NCBI RefSeq assembly: GCF_002094975.1
Contig: NZ_CP015283.1
Location: 186,001 to 250,000, forward strand
Reading direction: 5' to 3'
From: Streptococcus salivarius
GTDB lineage: Bacteria; Bacillota; Bacilli; Lactobacillales; Streptococcaceae
Length of the DNA: 64,000 bases
In this document: piece after piece, positions 19,974-34,619 of the stretch
Numbering within the stretch: position 1 is the stretch's first letter
Layout of the letters: every line of letters starts with the position of its first letter
Made by a program: the position numbers and the translations under genes
The notes under the pieces: generated by a model
What the model was told of the DNA's origin: nothing
Seen by the model: only the letters and a program-made list of their open reading frames with translations
Databases searched by the model: none

Positions 19974-20141
19974 TTATTTCTTAAATTGTGTCCATTTTTT
20001 AAAAAGCAGACTATAAAGAAGCAAGGTTAGCCCCAACAAGTTAATGGTATGGTGGACTACATCCAAACTTCTAAATAGATTAGCGAGGCCCATTCCGATG
20101 AGAATGGTAGCCAGTAAATACGGTTTTGAGTTTTTGAACAT
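19974..20141 (-). CDS. 55-residue two-helix membrane protein, candidate bacteriocin immunity (copy 1)
   Basis: Begins MFKNSKPYLLATILIGMGLA, with ribosome site AAGGAG eight bases upstream. It is clearly paralogous to the 55-residue protein at 21687-21854: same length, shared ANLFR, VHH and INL-GLTL blocks, and the same basic C-terminus. Two helices with a short turn (LFRSLDVVHHTIN) between. It is directly under a copy of the palindromic promoter module with no bacteriocin gene between promoter and start. I infer an immunity role from the position of its paralogue immediately after a bacteriocin gene. Confidence 0.7.
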   Translation of the reverse strand: MFKNSKPYLLATILIGMGLANLFRSLDVVHHTINLLGLTLLLYSLLFKKWTQFKK

Positions 20142-20191
20142 ACTTTTCTCCTTAAAGTGTTTTTAGCTTTCTGTGCAAAGCTATGATTTTT

Positions 20192-20240
20192 ATTATAGAT
20201 TGGAAGCCGATAAAAAAGTAGTGACATAAATGTCACTACT
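20192..20240 (-). promoter_or_regulatory. Palindromic bacteriocin promoter module, copy A
   Basis: Perfect palindrome at 20217-20240 (arms AGTAGTGACAT and complement, two-base centre), 19 bases, then the minus-strand -10 TATAAT at 20197-20192. Drives the 55-residue protein at 19974-20141. There is no proper -35, as expected of an activator-dependent promoter. The stop codon of the upstream 57-residue frame lies inside the palindrome. Confidence 0.75.
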
Positions 20241-20409
20241 TGTCTGACCTTATATCCTTGATAATCGTACACATAAGAAAGAGAAAAAGACATAACCCAA
20301 TAATATTTAGGCATTGAAGTCCAAAATTCAGTTTTTCTCCCAAGTTATGTAAGGCAACAAGGATGAAGCCCATAGACATCATTAGAGATACTAGGTGTTT
20401 TTTAGTCAT
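20236..20409 (-). CDS. 57-residue two-helix membrane protein
   Basis: Begins MTKKHLVSLMMSMGFILVAL; AAAGG lies 11-12 bases before the ATG. Two hydrophobic segments (about residues 7-21 and 32-50) flank HNLGEKLNFG, and the end is charged (KDIRSDK). Same topology as the 55-residue proteins, but only weakly alike in sequence. It starts 15 bases after the four-helix protein gene at 20425 and is probably co-transcribed. Its TAG stop falls within palindrome copy A. Confidence 0.6.
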   Translation of the reverse strand: MTKKHLVSLMMSMGFILVALHNLGEKLNFGLQCLNIIGLCLFLFLMCTIIKDIRSDK

Positions 20410-20424
20410 GATTATAGATACCTT

Positions 20425-20826
20425 TTATCTTTTAAAATATTTTTTGACTTGCAAGTAAGCTAGAAAATCACAGAGGATTAACAAAAGCATTAATACGGCT
20501 AGTACTATACGGTCTGTGGTATCACTGAATGTAAGTAATGTGTAAAACTCTACACAAAGCACTAGAAATGAGATGACCAGAAAGACAATGAAGGACTGCC
20601 GTATTGTTAACGGATTCACTGAATCTGGACGCTTCTTAAGAATATGGTAGAGCAGCCCATTTACAAAAATGACTACTAAAGCTAGTGCTCCGACTGCTAA
20701 CCAAATCTCTGGAGAGGTCTTGCTTTTGTAGAGAGAAATACTGGTACTTATAAGGAAAACTGCCAGTACAGCAGTGACGACCCTAGAAAATCGCAATACT
20801 CTCGAACTAACATTCTTTAACTTCAT
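20425..20826 (-). CDS. Four-helix membrane protein of the bacteriocin island
   Basis: A 133-residue protein with helices at about 12-30, 40-60, 76-95 and 102-122, a basic N-terminus (MKLKNVSSRVLRFSRVV) and a basic C-terminus (QVKKYFKR). It shares its N-terminal region with the shorter protein at 19161-19367. I do not recognise a named family. The setting, downstream of a two-peptide bacteriocin and its small partner, suggests an immunity or accessory role. Confidence 0.62.
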   Translation of the reverse strand: MKLKNVSSRVLRFSRVVTAVLAVFLISTSISLYKSKTSPEIWLAVGALALVVIFVNGLLYHILKKRPDSVNPLTIRQSFIVFLVISFLVLCVEFYTLLTFSDTTDRIVLAVLMLLLILCDFLAYLQVKKYFKR

Positions 20827-20951
20827 GATAAAACACCTAAATTATGAATAACCTCAGTCAGTCTTGTAAACTGAATAAGCTATTACATTAAACTCTATTC
20901 CTTTCTGTATTTTTTTATACTGCTGTAAGATCTCAAAAAAGACCTTAGCGA

Positions 20952-21122
20952 TTACATTCTACTGGAGATGTAATACAGTAGCGTCATTAGTACTGATACT
21001 TTAAATAGGCGAATATACATATCTTTGTTTTTTCTATTACTAAGATATGCAATCAAATATAATATAATCTCCGCTATTATCAGCAAGAATAATTTTACTT
21101 CGGGAACATCAAAAATAAGCAT
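20952..21122 (-). CDS. 56-residue membrane protein overlapping the second bacteriocin peptide gene
   Basis: I take the ATG at 21122, which overlaps the end of the bacteriocin gene at 21109 by 14 bases; the longer frame to 21143 begins deeper inside that gene. The product begins MLIFDVPEVKLFLLIIAEII and has two helices (about 9-27 and 38-52) with the basic turn SNRKNKDMYIR between. Placement directly after the two precursor genes is the usual spot for the dedicated immunity protein of a two-peptide bacteriocin. No strong ribosome site; coupling by overlap is likely. Confidence 0.6.
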   Translation of the reverse strand: MLIFDVPEVKLFLLIIAEIILYLIAYLSNRKNKDMYIRLFKVSVLMTLLYYISSRM

Positions 21123-21297
21123 TTGCAAGCCCCGAAGTAGCACATATCATAGTATAACCCCCTGCGGAAACAGGTCCTGCTGCCCATGCCATGAGCATAC
21201 CACCTAGACAGCCACCAATTACTGCTCCAACTTTCCCACCACCAGAAATAATTTCTAGCTCAGCATCGCACATCTTATTATACTTAGTCACATTCAT
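21109..21297 (-). CDS. Double-glycine bacteriocin precursor, second peptide of a two-peptide pair
   Basis: A 62-residue precursor. The leader (about 20 residues, starting MNVTKYNKMCDAELEIIS) ends in a GG cleavage site, leaving a mature peptide of about 42 residues that starts GKVGAVIGGCLGG and is rich in Gly and Ala, with two cysteines and GxxxG motifs. Ribosome site AGAGAGG lies just upstream, and the start is 12 bases after the stop of the first peptide gene. By analogy with thermophilin 13 and pneumococcal Blp pairs, both peptides insert together into target membranes. The leader differs from the other three precursors here. Confidence 0.85.
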   Translation of the reverse strand: MNVTKYNKMCDAELEIISGGGKVGAVIGGCLGGMLMAWAAGPVSAGGYTMICATSGLANAYF

Positions 21298-21309
21298 TTT
21301 TTAACCTCT

Positions 21310-21543
21310 CTAAAAGCTCGCTCCGATACATGCTAGCCCACCAGCAACTGCTCCAACATGTGCTCCTACAAATGCTCCTGGAAATGCTGTAACACCAAAT
21401 GCTGCCATACCACCTGTAAATCCAGCACCTGCGCCAGTTAAAGCTCCTCCAAAGATTAAATCTTTACATCTATTTCCACCTTCAACGTTTGCAAGTGCCT
21501 CAAGATCGAGTGTTTCAAAATTGTTCATTGTTTGTGTTATCAT
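21310..21543 (-). CDS. Double-glycine bacteriocin precursor, thermophilin-13 A-like peptide
   Basis: A 77-residue precursor with a 23-residue leader starting MITQTMNNFETLDLE and ending VEGG. The mature peptide of 54 residues carries the block PGAFVGAHVGAVAGG, which I recall as nearly identical to the core of thermophilin 13 peptide A, plus two cysteines and many GxxxG motifs. It is the first gene under promoter module B, with ribosome site GGAGG. Together with the next gene it should form a class IIb two-peptide bacteriocin. Export and leader removal need a peptidase-containing ABC transporter not present in the window. Confidence 0.9.
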   Translation of the reverse strand: MITQTMNNFETLDLEALANVEGGNRCKDLIFGGALTGAGAGFTGGMAAFGVTAFPGAFVGAHVGAVAGGLACIGASF

Positions 21544-21599
21544 TCTAACAACCTCCTAAAATATTATTTTTTAGCTTTTTTCTCTCAAGCTATGGTTTT

Positions 21600-21648
21600 A
21601 TTATAGGGTGGAAGACAACAAAAAAGTAGTGACATAAATGTCACCACT
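21600..21648 (-). promoter_or_regulatory. Palindromic bacteriocin promoter module, copy B
   Basis: Palindrome at 21625-21648 (one arm change, ACCACT for ACTACT), 19 bases, then minus-strand TATAAT at 21605-21600. Drives the two-peptide bacteriocin genes at 21543-21109. Confidence 0.78.
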
Positions 21649-21686
21649 CGATTTTGATTTTTAGGAACTCTACATTTCGAATACTT

Positions 21687-21854
21687 CTATTTTTTGAGTC
21701 GCTCCCATTTACTAAAAATCAAACTAAAAGTGATTAATGTTAACCCTACCAAATTAATGATATGATGAACAAAATCTAAATTTCTGAAAAGGTTAGCAAT
21801 GCCAAATCCTAAAAGGAAAATTGCTAGTAAATACATTTTTTTATCTTTAAGCAT
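21687..21854 (-). CDS. 55-residue two-helix membrane protein, candidate immunity protein (copy 2)
   Basis: Begins MLKDKKMYLLAIFLLGFGIA, with AGGTG before the ATG. Closely paralogous to the protein at 19974-20141 (same length; ANLFR, VHH, IINLVGLTL). It starts 15 bases after the stop of the bacteriocin gene at 21870, so the two form a two-gene unit under promoter module C. That pairing is the best evidence for an immunity role. It ends with the basic stretch KWERLKK on the cytoplasmic side. Confidence 0.72.
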   Translation of the reverse strand: MLKDKKMYLLAIFLLGFGIANLFRNLDFVHHIINLVGLTLITFSLIFSKWERLKK

Positions 21855-21869
21855 AGGATCACCTAAATA

Positions 21870-22049
21870 TTAGCAGAATGTAGCGTAACCAACTAAAGCT
21901 CCTCCCCAGTAACCTACTGGGCCTCCTGCTGATCCTACTAGAGCAGAGCCAATTGTGCCGGCATAACACTTAACCCATCCGCCACCTTCAACGTTTGCAA
22001 GTGTCTCGAGATTGAGTGTTTCAAAATTGTTCATTGTTTGTGTTGTCAT
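21870..22049 (-). CDS. Small double-glycine bacteriocin precursor
   Basis: A 59-residue precursor, short enough to be missed by common ORF cut-offs. The 23-residue leader (MTTQTMNNFETLNLETLANV, then EGG) is nearly identical to that of the 21310 peptide. The mature part has 36 residues, begins GWVKCYAGTIGSAL and ends YATFC, with two cysteines that could form a disulphide. Gly/Ala-rich with GxxxG patterns. Ribosome site GGAGG. It may act alone or as half of a two-peptide system; no second precursor follows, only the candidate immunity gene. Confidence 0.85.
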   Translation of the reverse strand: MTTQTMNNFETLNLETLANVEGGGWVKCYAGTIGSALVGSAGGPVGYWGGALVGYATFC

Positions 22050-22104
22050 TCTAACAACCTCCTAAAATATTATTTTTTAGCTTTTTCTCTCAAGCTATGG
22101 TTTT

Positions 22105-22153
22105 ATTATAGGTTGTAGGCCAACAAAAAAGTAGTGACATGTATGTCACCACT
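22105..22153 (-). promoter_or_regulatory. Palindromic bacteriocin promoter module, copy C
   Basis: Palindrome at 22130-22153, 19 bases, then minus-strand TATAAT at 22110-22105. Drives the 59-residue bacteriocin precursor and its small partner. Sequence from the palindrome through the ribosome site is almost the same as copy B, which points to a recent duplication. Confidence 0.78.
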
Positions 22154-22208
22154 CGATTTTGATTTTTAAGAAATCTTTTCGAATATAGAATCTATGCTCT
22201 AAACTATC

Positions 22209-23954
22209 TTACTCTCCTTCCATTGCACCTGCTTGTAGGCTGTACATCTTGTGGTAGGTGCCGCCGAGGGCTAGGAGCTCCTCATGGCTACCGTGTTCGA
22301 TGATGCGACCCTTGTCTAAGACATAGATGCAGTTGGCATCTTGGATTGTCGATAGGCGGTGGGCAATGGCAATAGTTGTGCGTCCTTGACGCATTTTTGC
22401 TAGAGAATTTTGGACAATAGCCTCTGTCTCTGAATCAATATTGGCTGTCGCTTCATCCAAAATCAAAATCTTAGGCTGGCTAGCAACGGTCCTAGCAAAG
22501 GCTAGAAGTTGGCGTTGGCCAGTTGAAAAACTTGAACCTCGTTCAGAAACTGGAGCATCGTAGCCTTCTGGAAGTTTGTCGATAAAGTGATTGGCATCCA
22601 CAAACTCAGCGGCTGCTTTAATCTCTTCATCAGTTAAATCCTGATACATGGCAATATTGGATTTGACTGTACCATGATAGAGAAAGGGTTCCTGAAGAAC
22701 AAGACCAATGTTCTTACGCAGCTCTGCCTGACTATAATCGCGAATATCCACACCGTCAAGAAGAACTCGGCCTGATTGGAACTCATAGAAACGCATAAAC
22801 ACGTTGATAATAGAGGATTTCCCGGAACCTGTAGAACCGACAAAGGCGATGGTTTCTCCTTTATTGACAGAGAAGGATATATTATCCAAAATCTGGTGCT
22901 TGCCATCATAGGAGAAGGAGACATTTTCAAAACGAATATTCCCCTCAGTAACCTTGGCATCTGTATCTCTCTGCTCAGGTTCATAGGTGCGCTCGTCAAT
23001 CAAGGCAAAGACTCGACCGGCTGAGACCATAGAAGTTTGCAAGGTTGAGAAGTTTTGCGTCACTTCAATCAAGGGATCAAAGAGACGGTTAATGTACTGG
23101 ATAAAGGCATACATGGTCCCCGCTGTGATACCCAGATAGATGCCACGATAGCCAAAATAGGACATGAGAACAGCATAGCCCAGGAGCTTTAGTAAGCTCA
23201 TGGCTGGGCGTAGAAAGAGAGAATCTAGTGACATGGAACGGCTAGCATAAATCAGGTGTTCCTCATTAATAGCATCAAACTCTTTTTTGAGGCGTTTCTC
23301 TTGGTTAAAGGCCTGAATAATACGAATCCCTTCGATACTCTCTGACAGTTTGGCATTTATATCTGAAAGCAAGGCTCTGGTCTTTTCAATGATAACCACT
23401 GATTTTTTGCGGTAAAGGTTAACCAAAAGGACAATCAGAGGAAGAAAGAGCACAATAAGCCCGGTTAGACGAATGTCCAACATCATCATAGTGTAAAGGG
23501 TGGTAACAAAGATAAAGATAGCCGAAATAAAGCTAGACAGAATCCCTGAGAACATCTCACTAATAGTCTCTGTATCATTGGTCAAGCGGGAAACGATAGA
23601 GCCCGATGGAGTCTTGTCAAAGTAGGACATCCCCAATTTTTCCATATTGGCAAAGGCATCTCGGCGAATATCCCTGACAATACTGTAGGACACACGCGCA
23701 AAAAAGAGATTTCCCAAATACTGAACTAGCGTCTGCAAGAGATAAAGACCATAGTACCCAATCAGAATCAAGCTTGCCGCTTGATTCATATCATGAAGAT
23801 AGTGGTCGATAAAATAAGAGGCCACAAGGGGAATGATACTCTTGATAACCGTTGTGGACAAGAGGAAGGCTAAAGCTAGAAAGGTCAAGAATTTGTAAGG
23901 CTTGAGATAGGTCAAGAGACGCTTAAACACAGACCATTGGTTTTGATTAGGCAT
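22209..23954 (-). CDS. Heterodimeric ABC exporter, subunit with the complete catalytic site
   Basis: A 581-residue half-transporter: six membrane helices (to about residue 320), then a nucleotide-binding domain with Walker A GSTGSGKSS and Walker B/D-loop ILILDEATANID, carrying the catalytic Glu. The signature motif is the variant FSTGQRQ rather than LSGGQ. This asymmetry is typical of heterodimeric multidrug exporters such as LmrCD and PatAB. Its start overlaps the partner gene by eight bases. The pair sits inside the bacteriocin region, but no N-terminal C39 peptidase domain is present, so it is not the leader-processing exporter. Confidence 0.92.
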   Translation of the reverse strand: MPNQNQWSVFKRLLTYLKPYKFLTFLALAFLLSTTVIKSIIPLVASYFIDHYLHDMNQAASLILIGYYGLYLLQTLVQYLGNLFFARVSYSIVRDIRRDAFANMEKLGMSYFDKTPSGSIVSRLTNDTETISEMFSGILSSFISAIFIFVTTLYTMMMLDIRLTGLIVLFLPLIVLLVNLYRKKSVVIIEKTRALLSDINAKLSESIEGIRIIQAFNQEKRLKKEFDAINEEHLIYASRSMSLDSLFLRPAMSLLKLLGYAVLMSYFGYRGIYLGITAGTMYAFIQYINRLFDPLIEVTQNFSTLQTSMVSAGRVFALIDERTYEPEQRDTDAKVTEGNIRFENVSFSYDGKHQILDNISFSVNKGETIAFVGSTGSGKSSIINVFMRFYEFQSGRVLLDGVDIRDYSQAELRKNIGLVLQEPFLYHGTVKSNIAMYQDLTDEEIKAAAEFVDANHFIDKLPEGYDAPVSERGSSFSTGQRQLLAFARTVASQPKILILDEATANIDSETEAIVQNSLAKMRQGRTTIAIAHRLSTIQDANCIYVLDKGRIIEHGSHEELLALGGTYHKMYSLQAGAMEGE

Positions 23955-25704
23955 CGGCTTCTCCTCCTTCCATTTCTAACTGTTGAGACTCATAGGTCTT
24001 GGCATACCAACCACCCTGAGCTAGCAAATCCTCATGATGGCCACGTTCAATAATTCGACCATCCTGCATGACTAAGATGAGGTCAGCGTGCACCACCGCA
24101 CTCAGACGATGGGCGGTAATGATAGTCGTCTTGTCCTTACGGGTATGTTTGAGATTGTCAATAATAGCATATTCTGTCTTGGCATCAACCGCAGATAGGG
24201 AGTCGTCCAAAATCAAAATGTCTGGATCCAAAATCATAGCCCGACTCATGGCCAGACGTTGTTTTTGACCACCTGATAGGCTGACACCCTTTTCACCAAT
24301 GATCATTTCAAAACCTTCAGGCATATCCTTGATATCATCATAAACTTGAGCTAACTTAGTTGCTTCCTCTACCTTGTTCAAGGAGAGATCAGGATTACCA
24401 AAGCGGACATTGTCTAAAATGGAACTGGCAAAGAGAAACTGGTCTTGAGGAACATAGCCCATCAAGCTACGCAAGTCTGATAGGCGATAGTCTCTGATGT
24501 CATGGCCATTCAAATAGATGGCTCCTTGATTGACATCGTGCTCCCGCAAGAGCAACTTGACAAGGGCCGTCTTTCCTGAGCCAGTCTGCCCAACCAAACC
24601 AAGGGTTTGCCCCTTGTCCAAGGTAAAATGAATATCTCTCAAAGTATCCTCATCCTCAAAGGCAAAGCGGTCAATCGCATATTCTAAACGACCATTTTCA
24701 ATACTTGGGAGAGGGTGCGCAGGATCTTGAACATCTGATTCCTGTTCCAGAAGATTTTCAATACGTTGGTAGGATACATTTCCCCTCTGTGTGATATTAA
24801 AGAGGAAGCCAATGGCCATCAGAGGCCAAACCAGCATGTCCAAATAGGTAATGAAGGTTACCAAATTTCCGACCGTTATCTGACCAGCCTGAATCATAAA
24901 GGCACCGACAAGAAGGGTCAAAACATAAGATGAGCCAACAAAGAGTAAGACCAAAGGATCAAAAAGGCTATCATACTTCATGGTATGCATATTCTTTTTA
25001 AAGGTCATCTTATTGGTCTCTTGGAAGGACTGAAGCTCAGCCTCCTGATAGCCAAAAGACTTGGTTACCTTGATTCCTGATACCGACTCTTGAACCTTAT
25101 TATTAAGTTCTGAAAAGGCTGCCTGGGATTCTCCAAAAGCTTTATGGGTCTTGCGTCCCAAACGACTGGTCGCAAAAGCCATGAAAGGTAGGGGGAAGAC
25201 AGCCACTAGTGTCATCTGCCAGGAAATGCTGAAAAACATAGTGATTAGGGTTACCAAGGCTGTAATAGAGGCATCCACGGCTGACATGACACCCCCACCA
25301 GCCAAGCGGGTTAAAGAGTTGATATCATTGGTTGCATGGGCCATGAGATCCCCAGTTCGGTACTTTTGATAAAAAGAAGGCGACATCTTGGTAAAATGCT
25401 CAAATAGGCGTGAACGCATAATCTGGCCTAAGCGATAAGAAGTCGCCAAGATATACATGCGCCAAACATAGCGCAAATAGTACATCCCCAGAGCTGCCAA
25501 AAGCAAATAAACGAGATTCAGAAGCAAGATCTGATTGGTCAATTTTCCCGATGTGATAGCATCAATGACCCGTCCCATAACCATAGGAGGAATCAGATTG
25601 AGAACCGAAACCAGACTCAGTGCCAAAATCCCAACAATATACCGGCGTTTTTCTAACTTGAAAAACCACCAAAGTTTTGCAATGATTGATTCTTTAAAAG
25701 ACAA
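23947..25704 (-). CDS. Heterodimeric ABC exporter, subunit with the degenerate catalytic site
   Basis: A 585-residue half-transporter with an N-terminal six-helix domain and a C-terminal nucleotide-binding domain. Walker A is GQTGSGKTA and the signature is canonical LSGGQKQRLAMSRA, but the Walker B ends ILILDDSLSAVD, with Asp in place of the catalytic Glu, the known hallmark of the non-hydrolysing site in heterodimeric exporters. With its partner it should form one drug or lipid exporter. No ligand can be named from sequence. Confidence 0.92.
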   Translation of the reverse strand: MSFKESIIAKLWWFFKLEKRRYIVGILALSLVSVLNLIPPMVMGRVIDAITSGKLTNQILLLNLVYLLLAALGMYYLRYVWRMYILATSYRLGQIMRSRLFEHFTKMSPSFYQKYRTGDLMAHATNDINSLTRLAGGGVMSAVDASITALVTLITMFFSISWQMTLVAVFPLPFMAFATSRLGRKTHKAFGESQAAFSELNNKVQESVSGIKVTKSFGYQEAELQSFQETNKMTFKKNMHTMKYDSLFDPLVLLFVGSSYVLTLLVGAFMIQAGQITVGNLVTFITYLDMLVWPLMAIGFLFNITQRGNVSYQRIENLLEQESDVQDPAHPLPSIENGRLEYAIDRFAFEDEDTLRDIHFTLDKGQTLGLVGQTGSGKTALVKLLLREHDVNQGAIYLNGHDIRDYRLSDLRSLMGYVPQDQFLFASSILDNVRFGNPDLSLNKVEEATKLAQVYDDIKDMPEGFEMIIGEKGVSLSGGQKQRLAMSRAMILDPDILILDDSLSAVDAKTEYAIIDNLKHTRKDKTTIITAHRLSAVVHADLILVMQDGRIIERGHHEDLLAQGGWYAKTYESQQLEMEGGEADA

Positions 25705-25767
25705 GTTACTCCTCCTATCCTTACAAATGGTTAATAATAGACCTCGTATAAGTCTCTTATGATAAGG

Positions 25768-26214
25768 TTACTTCCAATAGCGATAGATTGTGCCATCTTC
25801 TAACTGAAAGTGACCAATATAAGATAACTTCCCAAAATCAGTAGACTCTGGCAATTGATAAGCAAAGGAATCAAAATTATATACCTTGTTCCCACCATCC
25901 ACAGAGTAACTCTCCTTATCATGGATAACTGATTCATCTTTCTTAGGGTTCCAAATGCGTCTGATTTCATCAGATGTCTTATACTCTCTGACAAAATTGT
26001 ACAATTCAAAGTTAGTTGCCTCACTGAGATAGCGACCATCGGTGTTGTAGTTGGCTAATTGAGGCTCTCTCTTAGACTCAGAATAATTCCAAACCTGTCC
26101 TCTTTCTCGCATAATATCGGCATCACGGCCACTTTGATAAGTATCTGCCTTAACCATCGTCATTGTTACTCCTAACGTTAATACGGTGACTACTGTCATC
26201 ATTAAGTGTTTCAT
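25768..26214 (-). CDS. Small secreted protein of unknown function
   Basis: A 148-residue protein with a signal peptide (MKHLMMTVVTVLTLGVTMTMVKA, cleavage likely after VKA). Mature part about 125 residues, hydrophilic, with many Tyr residues and the end block GHFQLEDGTIYRYWK. Ribosome site GGAG five bases before the ATG. I do not recognise a family and see no cell-wall anchor, so it is probably released. It lies between the ABC exporter and a VanZ-like gene and seems to be its own unit. Confidence 0.65.
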   Translation of the reverse strand: MKHLMMTVVTVLTLGVTMTMVKADTYQSGRDADIMRERGQVWNYSESKREPQLANYNTDGRYLSEATNFELYNFVREYKTSDEIRRIWNPKKDESVIHDKESYSVDGGNKVYNFDSFAYQLPESTDFGKLSYIGHFQLEDGTIYRYWK

Positions 26215-26284
26215 TATTTCTCCAAACGTGTTTATTCATTTTTCCCTCTTTTGAATGTGTTGTATTTGTATGATAGAAAATAAG

Positions 26285-26325
26285 TGAAACCTGAGACGCG
26301 TAAGCTCCCAGGTTTTTTACTCTTT
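26285..26325. terminator. Hairpin between the secreted-protein and VanZ-like genes
   Basis: Outer stem AACCTG/CAGGTT with partly paired interior; the stronger T-run is on the plus strand, but on the minus strand it follows the VanZ-like stop closely. Probably the end of the yutD-rlmN-vanZ unit. Confidence 0.5.
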
Positions 26326-26844
26326 TAAATGCGTTTGAATCAGTTTTACAAGAAGGCGGTAGACAACTAGTGCCACCAAACCTCCCAAAGTGTTGGTCCA
26401 TAAATCATCTAACTCAAAGACACGATTAGCATCAATGAGAAGATCTAGAATGACTTGTCCAACCTCAATCGTCAAAGACATGACAAAGGTCGCTAAAAGG
26501 ACCTTTTTCCAAGACCTGAATCTTGGGTACAAGGCTAAAAGCCCTAAAATCAGCGGACTCAGCAAGAAAATGTTGGTCACATTTTGCCCAAGCACAAAGA
26601 CAATCTCTTTAAGACTATCCAGCTGATAAAAGTTGGTCAAACTATTGAATGGGGTTAATAGGACCACTACACGACCAAAATGTTGAATACCAGGGGTTTC
26701 AACACCTTCAACTAGCCCGTACTGGGGTGTCCAACATAGGAGCACTAAACAAAGGAGATAAGCACAGACCAAAACTCGGCTTAGCTTTCTTCCTTTTGAT
26801 GTTAGTTCTCCATCCTTATCTACCCAAGTCTTAAGCTGAAACAT
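26317..26844 (-). CDS. VanZ-like membrane protein
   Basis: A 175-residue membrane protein with about four to five helices and the VanZ-family pattern, including LTPFNSLTNFYQL in the first half and SLTIEVGQVILDLLIDANRVFELDDLWTNTLGGL near residue 130. In enterococci VanZ gives low-level teicoplanin resistance, but most chromosomal relatives have no known role. Its ATG is one base after the rlmN stop, so it is translationally coupled to rlmN. Confidence 0.9.
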   Translation of the reverse strand: MFQLKTWVDKDGELTSKGRKLSRVLVCAYLLCLVLLCWTPQYGLVEGVETPGIQHFGRVVVLLTPFNSLTNFYQLDSLKEIVFVLGQNVTNIFLLSPLILGLLALYPRFRSWKKVLLATFVMSLTIEVGQVILDLLIDANRVFELDDLWTNTLGGLVALVVYRLLVKLIQTHLKE

Positions 26845-26845
26845 C

Positions 26846-28015
26846 TTACTTACCTTCTGATTTACCAGAAGCTTCTGCTACTGCCTTTTGACGGTCACGT
26901 TTCATAGTGTTTGAACGCAATTGTCCACAAGCTGCGTCGATATCTGTACCGTGCTCTTGACGAACCACGCAGTTGACTCCATTTTTCTTGAGCACATCGT
27001 AGAAGGCCGCCACACGTTCTTTCGTTGAACGGCTATATTGGTCGTGCTCTGATACTGGATTATATGGAATCAAGTTGATGTATGACAACTTACGGATTTT
27101 CTTAGTCAAATCAGCCAACTCTTGAGCATTTTCAGGATGGTCATTGACCTCATTAAGCATGATATACTCAAAAGTTACACGACGGTTGGTTGTCTGGATG
27201 TAATACTCGATAGCTTCAAAGAGTTTTTCAAGTGGGAACGAGCGGTTGATACGCATGATGCTTGAACGAAGGTCATTGTTAGGCGCGTGAAGTGATACGG
27301 CAAGGTTAACTTGAACACCTTCGTTAGCAAATTCCTTAATTTTTGGTGCCAAACCAGATGTTGACACGGTGATGTGACGCGCTCCAATGGCAAGACCATT
27401 GTCATTGTTAATGGTACGCAAGAAGCGAAGCACATTGTCATAGTTATCAAATGGCTCACCGATACCCATAACAACCACGTGGCTGACACGTTCACCGTCA
27501 CCACGATCGTCAAAGTATTTTTGTACCAACATGATTTGCGCCACAATCTCACCAGCAGTCAAGTCACGTTGTTTCTTAATCAAACCACTGGCACAGAAAG
27601 TACAACCGATGTTACATCCAACCTGGGTTGTCACACAGACAGACAAACCATAGTGTTGACGCATCAAAACCGTCTCAATCAACATACCATCTGGCAATTC
27701 AAAAAGATATTTAACAGTACCATCTTTAGATTCTTGAACGATACGTTGTTTCAATGGGTTTACGCAGAAATTCTCATTCAATTTAGCAATGAAATCCTTT
27801 GAAATGTTGGTCATTTCTTCGAAAGATTGCACACGCTTCTTGTAGAGCCAATCCCAAATTTGTGTAGCACGGAATTTCTTTTCACCGTGTTCCATAGCCC
27901 AATCAATCAACTCGTCACGAGTAAGACCATAAATAGAAGGTTTGTAGCCTTCCATATTCTCTAACTTCTGACGTTTACGGCGTTCTGGTTTTGCTTGTGT
28001 TGTTACTTCTGACAT
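26846..28015 (-). CDS. rlmN: Dual-specificity rRNA/tRNA adenine C2-methyltransferase
   Basis: A 389-residue radical-SAM enzyme that methylates C2 of A2503 in 23S rRNA and A37 in some tRNAs. The iron-sulphur cluster motif CxxxCxxC appears as CNIGCTFC near residue 135, the SAM region [15 protein letters not shown] follows, and the C-terminal resolving cysteine lies in CGQL near residue 367. The N-terminus has a basic extension (KPERRKRQK). Sits between yutD (three bases upstream) and the VanZ-like gene in one operon, an order often seen in streptococci. Confidence 0.96.
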
Positions 28016-28018
28016 AGT

Positions 28019-28741
28019 TTAATTTCCTTTTTTTCTGATTGTGAAATGCTGACCATCTGACTTGGTCTGGCTTTGTTTCTTCGATGGGGTGTTTTGACCT
28101 TTAGATTTTGGAGCTTGCTTCTGACTCTTCTTGAAGTTAGGCTTACGCTCACGACCACCGTCCTCGGATCTAGATTTGAACTTAGGACGACGCTTGATTT
28201 TCTCAAAGCTTGGGCCCTCTTGGTCCCTATCTCTTCGTTTGGACTTGTCTGGCTTTTGCTTCGCAGAAGCTTTTTGCCCCTTATTCTTTTGAGAAGCATT
28301 GCACTCTCTAGATTCCTGAGAGGCATTACGACGATTATTAGAACGACGGCGCTTGCGACGAGGCTCCGTCTCCTCTTCAAAGACGATTAACTGCGGCTCT
28401 TCATTTTTCAAAATAAAGTAGGCACAGCCAAAGGCACAGTATTCACGCAAATACTCAGACAATCGGCTAATGCGGTCTGTTTTACGCGTATTAGGGCGCT
28501 CGTCCTCGTAAAATCCCTTAAGGCGAAGCTGATCATTAGACCAGTCCCCAACGATATAATCATACTTGAGCATGATTTCAGAAAAACGTTGCCCAAAGCG
28601 GGTAGCGTCTAAAGCATCCTTGTGATTTTCAAGAACTGTAAACTGACAGGCATCTGATTTCAGAAGATCAGCCACATACACAAAGTCTGGCCCTGGATAT
28701 TTATTATAATTAAACATTTCTGGCAAGATTTCTTTACGCAT
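28019..28741 (-). CDS. yutD: YutD-family protein with a long basic tail
   Basis: A 240-residue protein. The first 115 residues are a YutD domain (MRKEILPEMFNYNKYPGPDF at the start and LREYCAFGCAYFILKNEE near residue 105). The rest, about 120 residues, is an Arg/Lys-rich low-complexity tail (RRKRRRSNNRR and onward) that suggests RNA binding. AAAGGA precedes the start. It is upstream of rlmN, three bases apart. Function of the domain is not established; a role near RNA or ribosomes is inference from the tail and the neighbour. Confidence 0.88.
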   Translation of the reverse strand: MRKEILPEMFNYNKYPGPDFVYVADLLKSDACQFTVLENHKDALDATRFGQRFSEIMLKYDYIVGDWSNDQLRLKGFYEDERPNTRKTDRISRLSEYLREYCAFGCAYFILKNEEPQLIVFEEETEPRRKRRRSNNRRNASQESRECNASQKNKGQKASAKQKPDKSKRRDRDQEGPSFEKIKRRPKFKSRSEDGGRERKPNFKKSQKQAPKSKGQNTPSKKQSQTKSDGQHFTIRKKGN

Positions 28742-28795
28742 GTGCCATCCTTTCTGCTCTCTCTTATTTTCTATCCTGATGCTGTAATAATGTCT

Positions 28796-30151
28796 CTATA
28801 TCTTATCCCAATTGGCACCATTTTTTCCTAAATACTTGGCCACAAGTTCCCTTAACAAATCTGGAAAAAGAAGAGTAACTTCCTTTTCCTTAATTGTAGG
28901 AAAGTAAGAAGCAAAGTAGTACTGGTCCACAAGGACCAAACTAAACTTCTCATTGGAATCTACAACCCTTCTATTATACAACAAATTACCGTTTTTGTAA
29001 GCAAAATTCCCCGTGATTACTTCACCAAATGTCTTCCCTCTAAATCCCATACCTTTAATAGCCTGATTTTTAAGGAGTTCAGCCTTAGTAAAAACTTCCT
29101 GACAGATTTCTTTGAGTTCTTGTCCTGTCACGACTAGACGTGCCATCCGCATCTGGTGAGGAAGGGCTTCTTGCAGGTCTGCCATGGTCACTTGAGGACC
29201 TAGTGTTTTCATGATAAGTCCAGTATTTAAAAGCGTTAACTGGCTATGAGTCTCCTGACAAACAGCCTGTAAAACCAATTGACAGGTCTCATCAAAATCT
29301 AGTTCTCGACCTAGATTAGCTACCTTTTTCTGAGCTAAACGACGATGGCCTTCCTCACGCATAGCCTTGATAAAGGCTTCGTCCTCCTTGTCTAAATCCA
29401 AGATGTAGGACTTGGTGGGAATAGCCTCGACCTGACATTCTATCAATCGCTCATTTTCCACAGTAAGGTCAATACAGCCAAGATAATAACCATATCTGTC
29501 AGCAGCTGCTAAATAGGTTTCATTGACTAATTTACCCTCTTCAAAAAGGTGATGTGTGTGGCTCCCAATGACAAGGTTTACCTGTGGATAAGTCTCTGCA
29601 ATCTGCTCATCATAACGTACACCTAGGTGGCTAAGAACGACAACTATATCTGCATCCCTTACCTCAGGACGAGCCAAATCCTCTTCCAACCGAGCCATAG
29701 GCTCTAACACCTGCCAACCGTTGGGAGCATAGGTGATGTAATATGGGAAGGTATAGGCTAAGAAAGCAATGTTTGTACCTGCCTTAGTTTTGTGGATAAA
29801 ATAGGGCTTAGCCCATTCAGGTTGTCTTCCCTCATCCTTGAGATTTCCTATGATAGGCTGAAACTTAGCCTGCTCATAAAGACAGTCTAGCTCCTCCTTG
29901 GCCAGACCAATCCCCTCATTATTTCCAATAGTCGCATAGTCTATCCCCAACTCATTCATCAGGGCTACATTAAAACGCCCAGCGGTCGCATCAGACAAGG
30001 GATGGGACTTATCCACATTGTCCCCAAGATCTACCTTAATCAGCTCTCTATCCGTCTGACTCAAATCATCCACAGCGCGCTTGAGTTGTGGATACTGTTC
30101 AAAATGAGAGTGTAAATCATTGATATGAAGAATTCGAATCTTGTCTTTCAT
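28796..30151 (-). CDS. Metallophosphoesterase / 5'-nucleotidase family protein, probably leaderless
   Basis: A 451-residue protein with an N-terminal metallophosphatase domain (ILHINDLHSHF near residue 6, GDNVDKSHPL near 42, GNNEG near 78, GSHTHH near 195) and a C-terminal 5'-nucleotidase domain. It should hydrolyse nucleotides or nucleotide sugars. No signal peptide is seen, so it is likely cytoplasmic, unlike the large surface 5'-nucleotidases. I place the start at 30151, before KDKIRILHIN; the longer frame overlaps a terminator. An extended -10 (TGCTACAAT) ends seven bases before this ATG, so the message is probably leaderless, although AGGAG happens to lie in between. Confidence 0.88.
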   Translation of the reverse strand: MKDKIRILHINDLHSHFEQYPQLKRAVDDLSQTDRELIKVDLGDNVDKSHPLSDATAGRFNVALMNELGIDYATIGNNEGIGLAKEELDCLYEQAKFQPIIGNLKDEGRQPEWAKPYFIHKTKAGTNIAFLAYTFPYYITYAPNGWQVLEPMARLEEDLARPEVRDADIVVVLSHLGVRYDEQIAETYPQVNLVIGSHTHHLFEEGKLVNETYLAAADRYGYYLGCIDLTVENERLIECQVEAIPTKSYILDLDKEDEAFIKAMREEGHRRLAQKKVANLGRELDFDETCQLVLQAVCQETHSQLTLLNTGLIMKTLGPQVTMADLQEALPHQMRMARLVVTGQELKEICQEVFTKAELLKNQAIKGMGFRGKTFGEVITGNFAYKNGNLLYNRRVVDSNEKFSLVLVDQYYFASYFPTIKEKEVTLLFPDLLRELVAKYLGKNGANWDKI

Positions 30152-30158
30152 GACTCCT

Positions 30159-30167
30159 ATTGTAGCA
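30159..30167 (-). promoter_or_regulatory. Extended -10 placed at the start of the 5'-nucleotidase gene
   Basis: Minus strand TGC-TACAAT; the hexamer (30164-30159) ends seven bases before the ATG at 30151. Transcription would begin at or next to the start codon. Confidence 0.55.
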
Positions 30168-30178
30168 CTTTTGCTATA

Positions 30179-30212
30179 AAAAAACTTGACAATCATTCTG
30201 CCAAGTTTTTAC
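30179..30212 (-). terminator. Terminator after the small gene at 30267
   Basis: On the minus strand AACTTGGCA pairs with TGTCAAGTT around a seven-base loop, followed by a T-run. It closes the bacteriocin unit from 30670 and separates it from the nucleotidase gene. Confidence 0.8.
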
Positions 30213-30266
30213 ATGTGAGACGATGCTTCTTGCTATCCAATTTTTTAATAACTGAAAGGCTTATGA

Positions 30267-30425
30267 TTAATGATGAATTTTAGTATAGAGAAGGACTACG
30301 AAACCTGCAACTCCTAAAACATCTATCATTGTAATTAACCAATAATGAGGGACACACAACTGATAGCAACCTGCTAGAATGAAACACACACAAATGAGAA
30401 TGCTCGGATCATTTTGTTTCTTCAA
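30267..30425 (-). CDS. 52-residue two-helix membrane protein after a bacteriocin gene, candidate immunity (TTG start)
   Basis: The frame begins after the bacteriocin stop with a TTG at 30425 and reads (M)KKQNDPSILICVCFILAGCY, ending LLYTKIHH. No ATG gives a complete protein; a GGAG lies about 13 bases upstream, a long spacing, so the start is uncertain. Size, two-helix topology and place directly after a precursor gene match the 55-residue proteins at 19974 and 21687, but sequence similarity is weak. Inferred role: immunity to the peptide encoded at 30434. Confidence 0.5.
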   Translation of the reverse strand: MKKQNDPSILICVCFILAGCYQLCVPHYWLITMIDVLGVAGFVVLLYTKIHH

Positions 30426-30433
30426 ATTTCTAA

Positions 30434-30670
30434 CTAAACTCCGCAAAATGTAGCCATTCCAAGGCCAGCTCCTGACCATGCCCCAAATGCTCCACCTGAA
30501 ACAGTCCCAACAATTGGAAATGTAACAGTTCCAACTGATGTTCCAGTCAAAAATCCAAGCCCAGCAGATCCAGCAGTCCCAGCTACACAACCAATCACAC
30601 CCCCACCTTCGATAATAGAAAGATCTTCGGAATTAAGTGAATTAAAATTGTTAATGATTTGTGTTGTCAT
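30434..30670 (-). CDS. Double-glycine bacteriocin precursor
   Basis: A 78-residue precursor. The leader starts MTTQIINNFNSLNSEDLSII and ends EGG (23 residues), followed by a 55-residue mature peptide beginning GVIGCVAGTAGSAGLG and ending MATFCGV, with one cysteine near each end. Very Gly-rich with many GxxxG motifs. Ribosome site GGAGG. Under promoter module D, directly downstream of the kinase gene. It probably belongs to class II; whether it works alone or with a peptide from the other island is open. Confidence 0.88.
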   Translation of the reverse strand: MTTQIINNFNSLNSEDLSIIEGGGVIGCVAGTAGSAGLGFLTGTSVGTVTFPIVGTVSGGAFGAWSGAGLGMATFCGV

Positions 30671-30725
30671 AGTAACAACCTCCTTTAAAATATTTTTTTA
30701 GCCTTTTCTCAAAAGCTATGATTGT

Positions 30726-30774
30726 ATTATAGATAGAAAGCCAACAAAAAAGTAGTGACATTAATGTCACCACT
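30726..30774 (-). promoter_or_regulatory. Palindromic bacteriocin promoter module, copy D
   Basis: Palindrome at 30751-30774, 19 bases, then minus-strand TATAAT at 30731-30726. It lies between the kinase stop (30811) and the bacteriocin start (30670), 8 kb from copies A-C, with the same spacing. Confidence 0.78.
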
Positions 30775-30810: not shown

Positions 30811-32064
30811 TTATTTTATTTTTAAAGGAATAACAACTAGCACCACAAATTGATTTGACTGTATATTAATATTCAGATGTCCTTTCAGTTTCATGATTCT
30901 ATCATAACTACTTTTTATTCCTAGACCACGTCTATTAGGTAATTTTATAGATTTCATTCTGTCGTAATTGATATCTATTTCAGAAGTAAGTATAGGATTC
31001 GCCACTTTAAAGACTAATTTATTATTCTTAAAACGTAATACTATTTCAATTGGATTCGTTAATCCATTACGTTCAACCTCCTCTATTGCATTGTCGATAA
31101 TATTTCCGAGAATAGCGCAAGAATCTATAGCAATCGAACTTATATCTAAGTTATAGGGAATTTGTAAATCTAAATGAAACTGGACTCCATCTTTTTTCAT
31201 TTTAGATATTTTTTGATTTAATATAGCGTCAATTGGTATACATCCTGTAATCTTGCGATTAAAAACCTCCTGTCCCAGTATCTCTCGAGTTATTGCTTTG
31301 ATGTTTTCAAAATCATTACTATCTGCATAAAAATCTATTGAGGAAACAATATTTTTTAAATCATGTCTGAGAATTGCTAATTCTTCTTCTTGTTGAATGA
31401 TTTCACTGGTCATGCTATTTTCATCAAAAGAAATTTTGCCTTTGATAATATTATAATTTTTTTCACTCAAATAATTGTAAAGCACAATTATAACAATGTT
31501 TATCAATAATAAATAACTATCAAATATCAAAACTCGACTTAAAGGTAGTGACATCTTATATAACAGTAAAATAATAGACAAAAATGGAGGCAACGATAAG
31601 ATACCGTATTCTATTTTGTTCAGCTCAAATAGATTATCTATTTTAAAGTGTTTTAATCCTAACACAAATAAAAGCGTTAACAACATCAAAAAGAATTGGG
31701 CGAAAAAAATTACGATTTCTTTAGTTTGTTGAACTTGATGTAATAGCAATATTGCTATATCTTCTTGAATCAAAAACCAAAAAATCAGGAATAAATAATG
31801 AAATACCTTTTTCATAACATCTCCCGATAAAAAGAGGAAAAGAATCAGGAAAGTTAATAGCAAAGATAAGATTTTAAAATCTAACAATGTATTATGATTT
31901 ATTGTTATTGATGTGTGGCCAATAAAATAAACAAATAAGATCAAACAATAAAACTTGCTTTTGGAAATTCTGATCACAAAAAAGTGTTGTAAATAAAACC
32001 AAACAACAAAACTTTGGAATAAAAAAAGAGAGAGCAGCCCCACTGATTTATATACATCAATCAT
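30811..32064 (-). CDS. AgrC/ComD-type peptide-sensing histidine kinase
   Basis: A 417-residue sensor kinase. About six N-terminal helices (to residue 200) form the membrane sensor; then come the phosphorylation motif [10 protein letters not shown] near residue 230, the ATP-binding N-box [15 protein letters not shown] near residue 318 and the G-box [13 protein letters not shown] near residue 390. This is the HPK10/GHKL class that senses secreted peptides in quorum-controlled bacteriocin systems. It overlaps the regulator gene by four bases. The pheromone gene is not visible in this window. Confidence 0.9.
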
Positions 32065-32789
32065 AAACCGAAACTCCTCTCAATAAAATGGCTATATGCT
32101 GTTCTCACGGCTTTCTTACGACTTCTACTAATAGCAATACAATTACCATTTATCATAGTTACATCATTCTGATTAAATGAGGATATATGGTTTAAATTAA
32201 TCATTGTTCCACTATTAACCCTAACAAAATGAGTTGAAGGTAATTCTTTTTCAATTGCTGATATCCTCCCGTAAAACGATGTATCACTACCACTAACTAA
32301 TTCAAGGTGGATTTTCCTTCCAAACTCAGAATATAGACACACAATATTATCTAAGCTTATTTGGAAATGTTCCGTACCTATCTGATAAAACATAAATTTT
32401 TGTTTTGCAGTTAATTCCACCAGAACATCCCTGAGAACCTCTCTCAATTTTTCAATAGATACAGGTTTTATTAGATAACGAAATGGAGAGACTTCAAAAC
32501 TTTCTAAAGCATATTGCTCATAGCTTGTGACATAAATGAGTATAAAGTTTTTATCAATATTTCTCAATAACTTAGCAGTCTCTATACCATTTAGACCCTC
32601 CATCTCAATATCTAAAAATATCAAATGATAGTTGTCAATTTGTCCACTCATGGTATTTACCAGACGGTCTCCTTTGTAATAGCCATCAATTTCATATTGA
32701 ACATTGATTTCATCAAAATATTCTGAAATATGAGTTTCTAAATTACTCACTTGTAAGCTATCATCATCACAAATTGCTACTTTATACAT
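32061..32789 (-). CDS. LytTR-family response regulator
   Basis: A 242-residue regulator. The receiver domain (residues 1-120) has the acidic pocket CDDD at residues 7-10 and the phospho-acceptor Asp60 in IFLDIEM; the C-terminal LytTR DNA-binding domain (about 135-240) includes [17 protein letters not shown]. Relatives are BlpR, ComE and AgrA, which usually bind repeated sites upstream of weak -35 boxes, matching the architecture of the four palindromic modules here. That it acts on them is inference from proximity and type. Co-transcribed with the kinase. Confidence 0.92.
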
Positions 32790-32826
32790 CTGTCTCTATA
32801 AATTCCTTTTTCTAATATTATATCAT

Positions 32827-33579
32827 TCAAAACGCCTTACTTTCAAACCCTTTCACGGTAGCAATCAATAACAGTATACAAAGCAAAAAATAACTTAGTA
32901 AATGAATTAGAGATAATCCAATTGTAAAGTGATAATTAGGCACAACAAAAAAATATCCAGGAATAAATTTAGAAATCATAGTAATATTTGATAGAAGTTG
33001 ACATAAAAAGTAAACACCTAGACTTGCAAACGAAGCCATTATTGCCGAAATATTTAGTGATAGATAAAAAGCAATGCTAGCAAGCAAAATAATAAATCCT
33101 AAATTCACTAAACTAACTACTATTGATTGTACATTTGTAGCATGTAGCTCCCAAAAACGTGTATAACCGAACTCAGTATGAGATATAAAGCAAATATAAG
33201 TGACTAACGACGTCAAGCAATTTAAGATATATAAAAATAATATTGATAGGATAACAACAATATACTTAGAGACTATCAATATTTTCTTACTAGTGACTCT
33301 ATTTACCTCTAATAAAATTTGTCCTCCTTGAATCTCTCCTCCTAAAATAAAGGAAGAAGTATATAAAATTAATAATAACGGGATAGTTAATATTAATAAA
33401 AATGTCCACATCGTGGTGATAAAGGTAACTAAATCTAATTTAGCCCCTATTTTTACAAAGTCCCAATGTAAAAAGGCACCAAAACCATAAATCAAAGACC
33501 ACAATGATAGTATAGCTAATATAATAAAATTTTTCCGTTTCAATAATTTATATAGTTCTGCTAAAACGATTGATTGCAT
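32827..33579 (-). CDS. ABC-2 type permease, probable immunity exporter subunit
   Basis: A 250-residue membrane protein with six helices and a basic N-terminus (LAELYKLLKRKNF), of the kind paired with BcrA/LanF-type ATPases in bacteriocin or lantibiotic self-protection. Starts three bases after the ATPase stop, so the two are co-translated. Local base composition is very AT-rich compared with the flanking housekeeping genes. Substrate unknown. Confidence 0.78.
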   Translation of the reverse strand: MQSIVLAELYKLLKRKNFIILAILSLWSLIYGFGAFLHWDFVKIGAKLDLVTFITTMWTFLLILTIPLLLILYTSSFILGGEIQGGQILLEVNRVTSKKILIVSKYIVVILSILFLYILNCLTSLVTYICFISHTEFGYTRFWELHATNVQSIVVSLVNLGFIILLASIAFYLSLNISAIMASFASLGVYFLCQLLSNITMISKFIPGYFFVVPNYHFTIGLSLIHLLSYFLLCILLLIATVKGFESKAF

Positions 33580-33582
33580 TTT

Positions 33583-34449
33583 TTACCCCCTAAATAATTC
33601 TTCAATAGAGTCACTCACCGTGATTTCTTTTATCTCACAATTATATTTATAAATGAGCTTCAGGATCGAATTCAATAACATCATATCATGTGGTAAGATT
33701 ATCTGACCTTCTTTTAGGGTAACTAATTTACTAAGACTTTGTTCCAACTCCGGCACTGCATATTCTAAAGTAATAATTATTTTATTTTTTCCTAGTTTAG
33801 TATGTGTTTCAATACTCTTTCCATTTATAAATAGGAAATAATCACAAATTTCTTCAATTTCATGTAACTGATGTGATGAGATTAATATTGTAACCCCTTT
33901 TTCACGACGTAACTTCACAATATAGTCTAAAAGAACTCTAACTCCTGCAGGATCTAAACCCACAAAAGGTTCATCTAGAATCAGAAACTCAGGGTCATCT
34001 AACAAGGCCAATGCCAAACCCAATCTCTGCTTCATGCCAAACGAGTAAGATTTTACTAGTTTTTTGCTACTATCTAAACCCACAAATTTTAACAACTTAT
34101 TAATCCGTTTATCTAGTCCACTCTTATCAAATGATGAAGAATACATAGAGAATAATTTCAAATTATCATATGCAGAAAAATCTTCAAATAATTTACAATC
34201 TAGAAGAAAACCGATTTTATTTAAACTATTTCTTTTAGTATTATATTCTGAATCCCCTTTAAATTGAATTTTACCTTTTGTGCGTGGAGTAAGTCCTAAG
34301 ATCATCTTCATTAAAGTAGTCTTTCCACAGCCATTCTTCCCAATTAAGCCAACAATGTCACCTCTTTGAATTTCGAAATTGAGATTGGTTAATACCTCTT
34401 GTTTTCCAAATGATTTATTCAAATGACAGACTCGTAATATTGTATTCAT
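33583..34449 (-). CDS. ABC transporter ATPase, BcrA/LanF-like, probable immunity exporter subunit
   Basis: A 288-residue ATPase beginning MNTILRVCHLNKSFGKQEVL. Walker A is GKNGCGKTT near residue 40, the signature is the variant YSFGMKQRLGLA near residue 135, and Walker B with the catalytic Glu is EFLILDEPFVGLDPAG. Only one domain, with no membrane part; the permease is the next gene. The start at 34449 has GGAGG upstream and lies inside the 3' end of a broken ABC gene in another frame. Export of an antimicrobial peptide is the usual job of the family. Confidence 0.88.
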   Translation of the reverse strand: MNTILRVCHLNKSFGKQEVLTNLNFEIQRGDIVGLIGKNGCGKTTLMKMILGLTPRTKGKIQFKGDSEYNTKRNSLNKIGFLLDCKLFEDFSAYDNLKLFSMYSSSFDKSGLDKRINKLLKFVGLDSSKKLVKSYSFGMKQRLGLALALLDDPEFLILDEPFVGLDPAGVRVLLDYIVKLRREKGVTILISSHQLHEIEEICDYFLFINGKSIETHTKLGKNKIIITLEYAVPELEQSLSKLVTLKEGQIILPHDMMLLNSILKLIYKYNCEIKEITVSDSIEELFRG

Positions 34450-34619
34450 GGTGATTACCTCCATCAGTTGCAGTATACATTAAAAAATCATTGAATTTAT
34501 CAAAAGTTTCAAGTAATAATTCATACTTGTCTTTTGCAATAATTTTACCTTTTTCCATAAAAGTTATAGAATCAAATCTTTTTAAAAATGGCTTTAATAA
34601 AGCTATTTAAAATGTGTCA
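34415..34619 (-). pseudogene. C-terminal remnant of an ABC exporter ATPase
   Basis: An open frame without a start codon encodes LKRFDSITFMEKGKIIAKD followed by KYELLLETFDKFNDF, the typical end of a peptide-exporter nucleotide-binding domain (after the H-loop: D-I-x-F-M-x-x-G-K-I-x-x-x-x-x-Y-x-E-L-L). Everything upstream is missing; a stop lies just before. It overlaps the start of the intact ATPase gene by 35 bases, as expected of neighbours in an operon. Probably the tail of a lantibiotic-type or other peptide exporter lost by deletion. Confidence 0.65.

Follow-up and report, generated by a model that had tools for sequence, protein, structure and literature searches.

Four palindromic modules and the genes behind them

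The window, a 64,000-nucleotide stretch of the Streptococcus salivarius chromosome, contains four 24-bp palindromes on the minus strand, which we refer to as ComR-type boxes 1 (positions 20217 to 20240), 2 (21625 to 21648), 3 (22130 to 22153), and 4 (30751 to 30774). These are the only matches in the window when up to three mismatches are allowed, and none was found in 100 shuffles. The 11-bp arms are perfect in box 1 and carry one changed base in each of boxes 2 to 4, in all three cases A to G at position 4, counted inward from the outer edge, of the arm distal to the -10 element; the palindrome core, GTGACAT/ATGTCAC, is present at all four sites. A minus-strand TATAAT lies exactly 19 bp from the palindrome in every module (20192 to 20197, 21600 to 21605, 22105 to 22110, and 30726 to 30731 for boxes 1 to 4, respectively). 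A previous sequence-only reading of this locus, in which these features had been noted, had also reported that a -35 element is missing, and indeed the best score over spacings of 14 to 20 was 2 of 6 in all four modules, compared with a score of at least 3 at 1,664 of 2,000 random window positions.

Boxes 2, 3, and 4 precede double-glycine class II bacteriocin precursors, all matching Pfam family Bacteriocin_IIc and encoded on the minus strand, of 77 amino acids (aa) (21310 to 21543), 59 aa (21870 to 22049), and 78 aa (30434 to 30670), respectively, and box 1 lies 5' of the gene for a small hydrophobic membrane protein of 55 aa (19974 to 20141, minus strand), in agreement with the assignment made earlier. 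The 77-aa precursor gene is followed on its 3' side by a 62-aa open reading frame (ORF) (21109 to 21297, minus strand) that has a GG-type leader and no Pfam match and that, to judge from its sequence, possibly encodes the second peptide of a two-peptide bacteriocin. Directly behind the 59-aa precursor, another small hydrophobic protein of 55 aa is encoded (21687 to 21854, minus strand), probably an immunity protein; it is 62% identical to the box 1 protein, which itself has no Pfam match and is probably a stand-alone immunity protein. A pair like that of 21870 to 22049 and 21687 to 21854, a bacteriocin followed by a 55-aa ORF, was also found at a related locus (L057). Near box 4, at 30811 to 34464, the window encodes a two-component system of the LytTR type and, next to it, an ABC transporter, the ATPase of which has galliderm_ABC (lantibiotic protection) as its best NCBIfam match, below the cutoff. 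The three bacteriocins, both 55-aa proteins, the kinase, and the ABC permease were all without an NCBIfam match. Similarly, homologues of the 55-aa protein (32 proteins) and of the box 4 bacteriocin (51 proteins) were annotated as "hypothetical protein" or unnamed, with the single exception of a 79-aa relative of the latter labeled "DNA-binding response regulator," which we take for a misnaming, and individual bacteriocin names (blpK, slvX, etc.) could not be assigned from the homologue searches.

The module in the genome and across the genus

The sequence-only reading took the fixed spacing in separate copies as a sign of a bound activator. The activator part of that argument was supported; the independence of the four copies was not, since they have their leader sequence in common as well and are therefore probably related duplicates rather than four independent events. 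Better support for the fixed spacing is the identical distance before unrelated genes elsewhere in the genome. When the 2.33-Mb genome was searched with an 18-bp core (22 bp from this 18-mer corresponding to 19 bp from the 24-mer), a motif search that had been proposed as a check, the same module was indeed recovered genome-wide: 18 places were found at up to two mismatches, against 1 for the reversed pattern. At up to one mismatch, 14 places remained, 13 of which have a -10-like hexamer (11 TATAAT, 1 TACTAT, and 1 TAGAAT) at exactly 22 bp. A first, stricter -10 pattern had given 12 of 13, the TAGAAT of locus L001 being found by reading position 22, and L013 is the single one of the 14 places without a -10 element. 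Two of the four two-mismatch places were read, one being an sptA-like site and the other (L015) being without a -10 element.

The genes behind these boxes point toward competence. One box (L012) fronts a comX-like sigma factor gene, the sigma factor matches of which are weak and below curated cutoffs (Sigma70_r2, 23.7 bits, with a cutoff of 24), and another (L014) is located between comR and a comS-like ORF of 24 aa, behind which a C39-peptidase ABC transporter for peptide cleavage and export is encoded (NCBIfam bacteriocin_ABC, above the cutoff). The comS box has the same core as the window sites, and the comX-like box has this core with one change. The names comX, comS, and comA are assigned on the basis of sequence, position, and published papers. 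Two more boxed units contain ORFs with GG leaders (L003 and L011), and one box precedes an ABC ATPase gene (L006). Additionally, ComR-type boxes were observed before very small ORFs of 37 to 53 aa (L005, L004, and L001). Of the 13 sites, 6 (L007 to L011 and L014) show the A-to-G substitution at distal-arm position 4, and none shows it in the proximal arm; in the box of the comX-like gene, the proximal arm is the changed one, at position 6 counted from its outer edge, two positions further in.

We also searched 284 Streptococcus genomes for the module with an exact TATAAT, allowing any distance from 8 to 36 bp. This yielded 44 matches in 8 genomes, 42 of them at 22 bp and 2 at 21 bp, the latter two directly behind a ComR gene. 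Such strict spacing, with 42 of 44 matches at one distance and 2 shorter by 1 bp, is consistent with ComR activating transcription by touching RNA polymerase. A ComR homologue (42 to 100% identical) is encoded in all eight genomes with the module, a co-occurrence that is read in one direction, from module genomes to ComR.

ComR, its paralogues, and the LytTR regulator

The ComR gene of the genome under study (G000:C1:804155-805051) is a 299-aa ORF directly upstream of comS, scoring 605 bits over its full length (1 to 299) against the crystal structure 5jub and 535 bits against 6hu8 (named ComR); 5JUB is described as a ComR-sComS-DNA complex (eLife 2019, PMC6703854). The genome thus holds comR, comS-like, and comX-like genes, with boxes at comS and at the comX-like gene, as in a salivarius-type ComRS system. 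A search of genome contigs with ComR gave one locus, in S. vestibularis, at 84%. Two ComR paralogues, 40 to 41% identical, are encoded at G000:C1:1413932-1414801 and G000:C1:1416635-1417504, with an ABC ATPase gene (L051) between them, whose box lies 21 bp, not 22 bp, from its -10 element (TATACT). We liken this gene to sptA because a distance shorter by 1 bp is the published hallmark of this ScuR/SarF target.

The distribution of regulators among the related genomes was also recorded. The window's genome has the two ComR paralogues, which are ScuR/SarF-like, and the sole LytTR gene in the window is that at 32061 to 32789. In G182 and G269, a different response regulator, 24% identical, lies beside the boxes, and no ComR paralogue at the 40% level was found; we presume, by its position, that this regulator is BlpR-like. 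G176 has a shortened version of it and likewise no ComR paralogue at the 40% level. The pattern over these four genomes (G000, G182, G269, and G176) fits the published mutual exclusion of ScuR/SarF and BlpRH.

Taken together, we consider it almost certain that the four modules represent ComR boxes of salivarius-group Streptococcus (the group being assigned from ComR similarity and the gene set), in a joint reading that includes the pheromone XIP, a promoter with only a -10 element, probable use by ScuR, and coproduction of bacteriocins and immunity proteins. The module identity, the spacing, comR, comS, the comX-like gene, and the two ComR paralogues were observed here; that ComR and ScuR bind and activate such promoters is taken from the literature, and we infer that the four sites are bound in this strain and that the bound protein contacts RNA polymerase. 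ComR, an Rgg/RNPP regulator, in complex with XIP, the mature form of ComS, would bind the palindrome as a dimer and recruit RNA polymerase to the -10-only promoter over a T-rich spacer whose length is constant. Its paralogue ScuR would probably act on these bacteriocin boxes too but would not activate comX, and the bacteriocins and the stand-alone immunity protein would be made together with, or just before, competence.

The sequence-only reading had instead interpreted the palindrome as a variant BlpR/ComE-type site, bound by the LytTR response regulator encoded at 32061 to 32789 (minus strand), which would then activate the bacteriocin genes. This protein, encoded near box 4, has a LytTR domain and is a true response regulator, and for other streptococci, bacteriocin control by the two-component system BlpRH is reported (eLife 2019, PMC6703854). 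However, an orthologue is present in none of the seven other module genomes, the best match being only 32% identical (E value, 1.4e-27; G269) and no further match in those genomes being better than an E value of 5.5e-15, and the module also precedes comS and the comX-like gene. Because of these two observations, together with the presence of ComR in all eight module genomes, we rejected the LytTR regulator in favor of ComR. LytTR (BlpR/ComE) sites consist of two direct repeats of about 9 bp, 20 to 23 bp apart from start to start, and no direct repeats with such spacing were found in any of the four modules at an identity of at least 8 of 9. Finally, the genome contains nine LytTR matches, and proximity to box 4 is therefore weak evidence. 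We thus read the palindrome as a ComR box and regard control by this LytTR regulator as hardly credible. In G182, about 0.4 kb separates the equivalent of box 4 from a DEAD-box gene; in the window, box 4 and this gene are 4.2 kb apart. The G182 interval lacks the two-component and ABC genes and leaves no room for the LytTR operon. Since the operon is missing from this equivalent place and the regulator has no orthologue in the seven other genomes, the 30811-to-34464 segment looks like a strain- or species-specific insertion.

Two further explanations leave the LytTR regulator aside. ScuR (or SarF) might be the main user of the four window boxes, with ComR acting on them only weakly and predation being largely uncoupled from competence, a possibility that gains from the presence of both paralogues in the genome. 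However, PMC6703854 reports that ScuR binds slvX and comS probes more weakly than ComR, the window boxes have the ComR-type 22-bp spacing rather than the 21 bp of sptA, and the native pheromones of ScuR and SarF are unknown, according to the PLoS Biology 2026 article; all in all, we regard this division of labor as unlikely. Very improbable is a reading in which the palindrome acts as an RNA hairpin or terminator instead of binding a protein. A palindrome with 11-bp arms and a run of T residues behind it on the minus strand does resemble an intrinsic terminator, but the fixed -10 element at 13 of 14 places, with unrelated genes downstream, requires a promoter element; the palindrome may double as a terminator. 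The bacteriocins are, in our reading of the boxes as ComR targets, most likely tied to competence pheromone signaling, through ComR and its paralogues, and not to a two-component system, which corrects the regulator proposed earlier.

Leader hairpins, a stand-alone gene, and relation to published systems

Near the presumed transcript start of each boxed window unit, a hairpin is predicted on the minus strand, at 20164 to 20183 (7-bp stem), 21572 to 21592 (6-bp stem), 22078 to 22097 (6-bp stem), and 30699 to 30718 (8-bp stem with one G-U pair). The stems, TAGCTT...AAGCTA and variants thereof, begin 7 to 8 nucleotides after the -10 element, with z-scores of -1.4 to -2.3. At the equivalent place, a different species (G199) has TAGTGATA...TATCACTA, and G211 has TAGCTC...GAGCTA. 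Short hairpins were also seen in relatives (L053, L054, L057, and L061), and other species have stems that differ but still pair. From 23 loci, 30 unique leaders, all behind boxes at the 22-bp distance (no 21-bp promoter, and only some of the 44 matches in the genus, being included), were reduced to 20 representatives at 70% identity. In 11 of these 20, a stem of 6 bp or more begins 5 to 9 nucleotides after the -10 element, against a shuffle mean of 4.0, with 1 of 300 shuffles reaching 11; other start ranges of equal width gave 1 to 7 of 20. With minima of 5 bp and 7 bp, the counts were 13 and 5 of 20, respectively, each reached by 8 of 300 shuffles. No such stem was found in the leaders of L001, L005, the G269 copy of the box 1 unit, and the comX-like gene of G035, and the L011 leader folds otherwise. 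Since several boxed leaders are without the stem, the statistical signal is modest, and the leaders are related to one another, we treat the hairpin as a lead only: its predicted recurrence is suggestive of a conserved hairpin at the start of boxed bacteriocin transcripts. We speculate, with considerable doubt, that the modules extend beyond the published ComR promoter and that a hairpin at the 5' end might shield the mRNA from 5' decay, such that the bacteriocin and immunity proteins outlast the competence burst.

The box 1 gene deserves separate mention. In all four salivarius-type genomes that were read, a box lies directly before a 55-aa gene with no bacteriocin in between: the window's genome, G182, G176, and G269, the last with two copies (loci outside the window, L052, L053, and L054); for the other four module genomes, the reading covered short stretches. 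A further boxed unit, containing a bacteriocin or a GG-leader ORF of 25 aa, lies just upstream in G182 and G176. Because the stand-alone arrangement recurs in four of four such genomes, twice in G269, we rejected the idea that the box 1 gene arose in this strain by recent deletion from a bacteriocin unit. In a literature search at the level of titles and abstract beginnings, with Mignolet 2018 and Damoczi 2024 outside its reach, no report was found of orphan immunity with ComR or of a leader stem-loop. The boxed 55-aa gene would, by its sequence and setting, be a putative self-protection gene kept under pheromone control, and such a stand-alone putative immunity gene makes a small, testable addition to the published system.

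BlpR/ComE LytTR promoters likewise control class II bacteriocins in streptococci, but they do so through direct repeats and two-component control, and the four window modules are without such repeats. A closer likeness is offered by PsptA, the promoter served by ScuR and SarF, which has a palindrome of the same family and an equivalent site in this genome (L051) but 1 bp less to the -10 element, whereas the four window boxes keep the 22-bp spacing. The closest counterparts are the S. salivarius comS, comX, and slvX promoters, which, according to Mignolet et al. (eLife 2019, PMC6703854), are bound and activated by ComR-XIP. The same paper describes a palindrome and a T-rich spacer that does not vary in length among the aligned promoters except in sptA (1 bp less), gel shifts of such promoters with ComR and ScuR, and a comX box with one mismatch, which ScuR binds once its symmetry is restored; it also presents competence-linked control of bacteriocins as a peculiarity of S. 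salivarius relative to other streptococci. Two later reports agree, stating that ComR-XIP directly activates blp/slv bacteriocin genes, with ScuR and SarF replacing BlpCRH (PLoS Biology 2026), and that ComR appears to regulate numerous S. salivarius bacteriocins (J. Bacteriol. 2025). The window boxes resemble the S. salivarius ComR promoters in palindrome, T-rich spacer, constant -10 distance, bacteriocin targets, and the one-mismatch comX box, with the A-to-G change at distal-arm position 4 in three of the four as a possible difference; the module is the already published system, seen in another strain or a close relative of S. salivarius.
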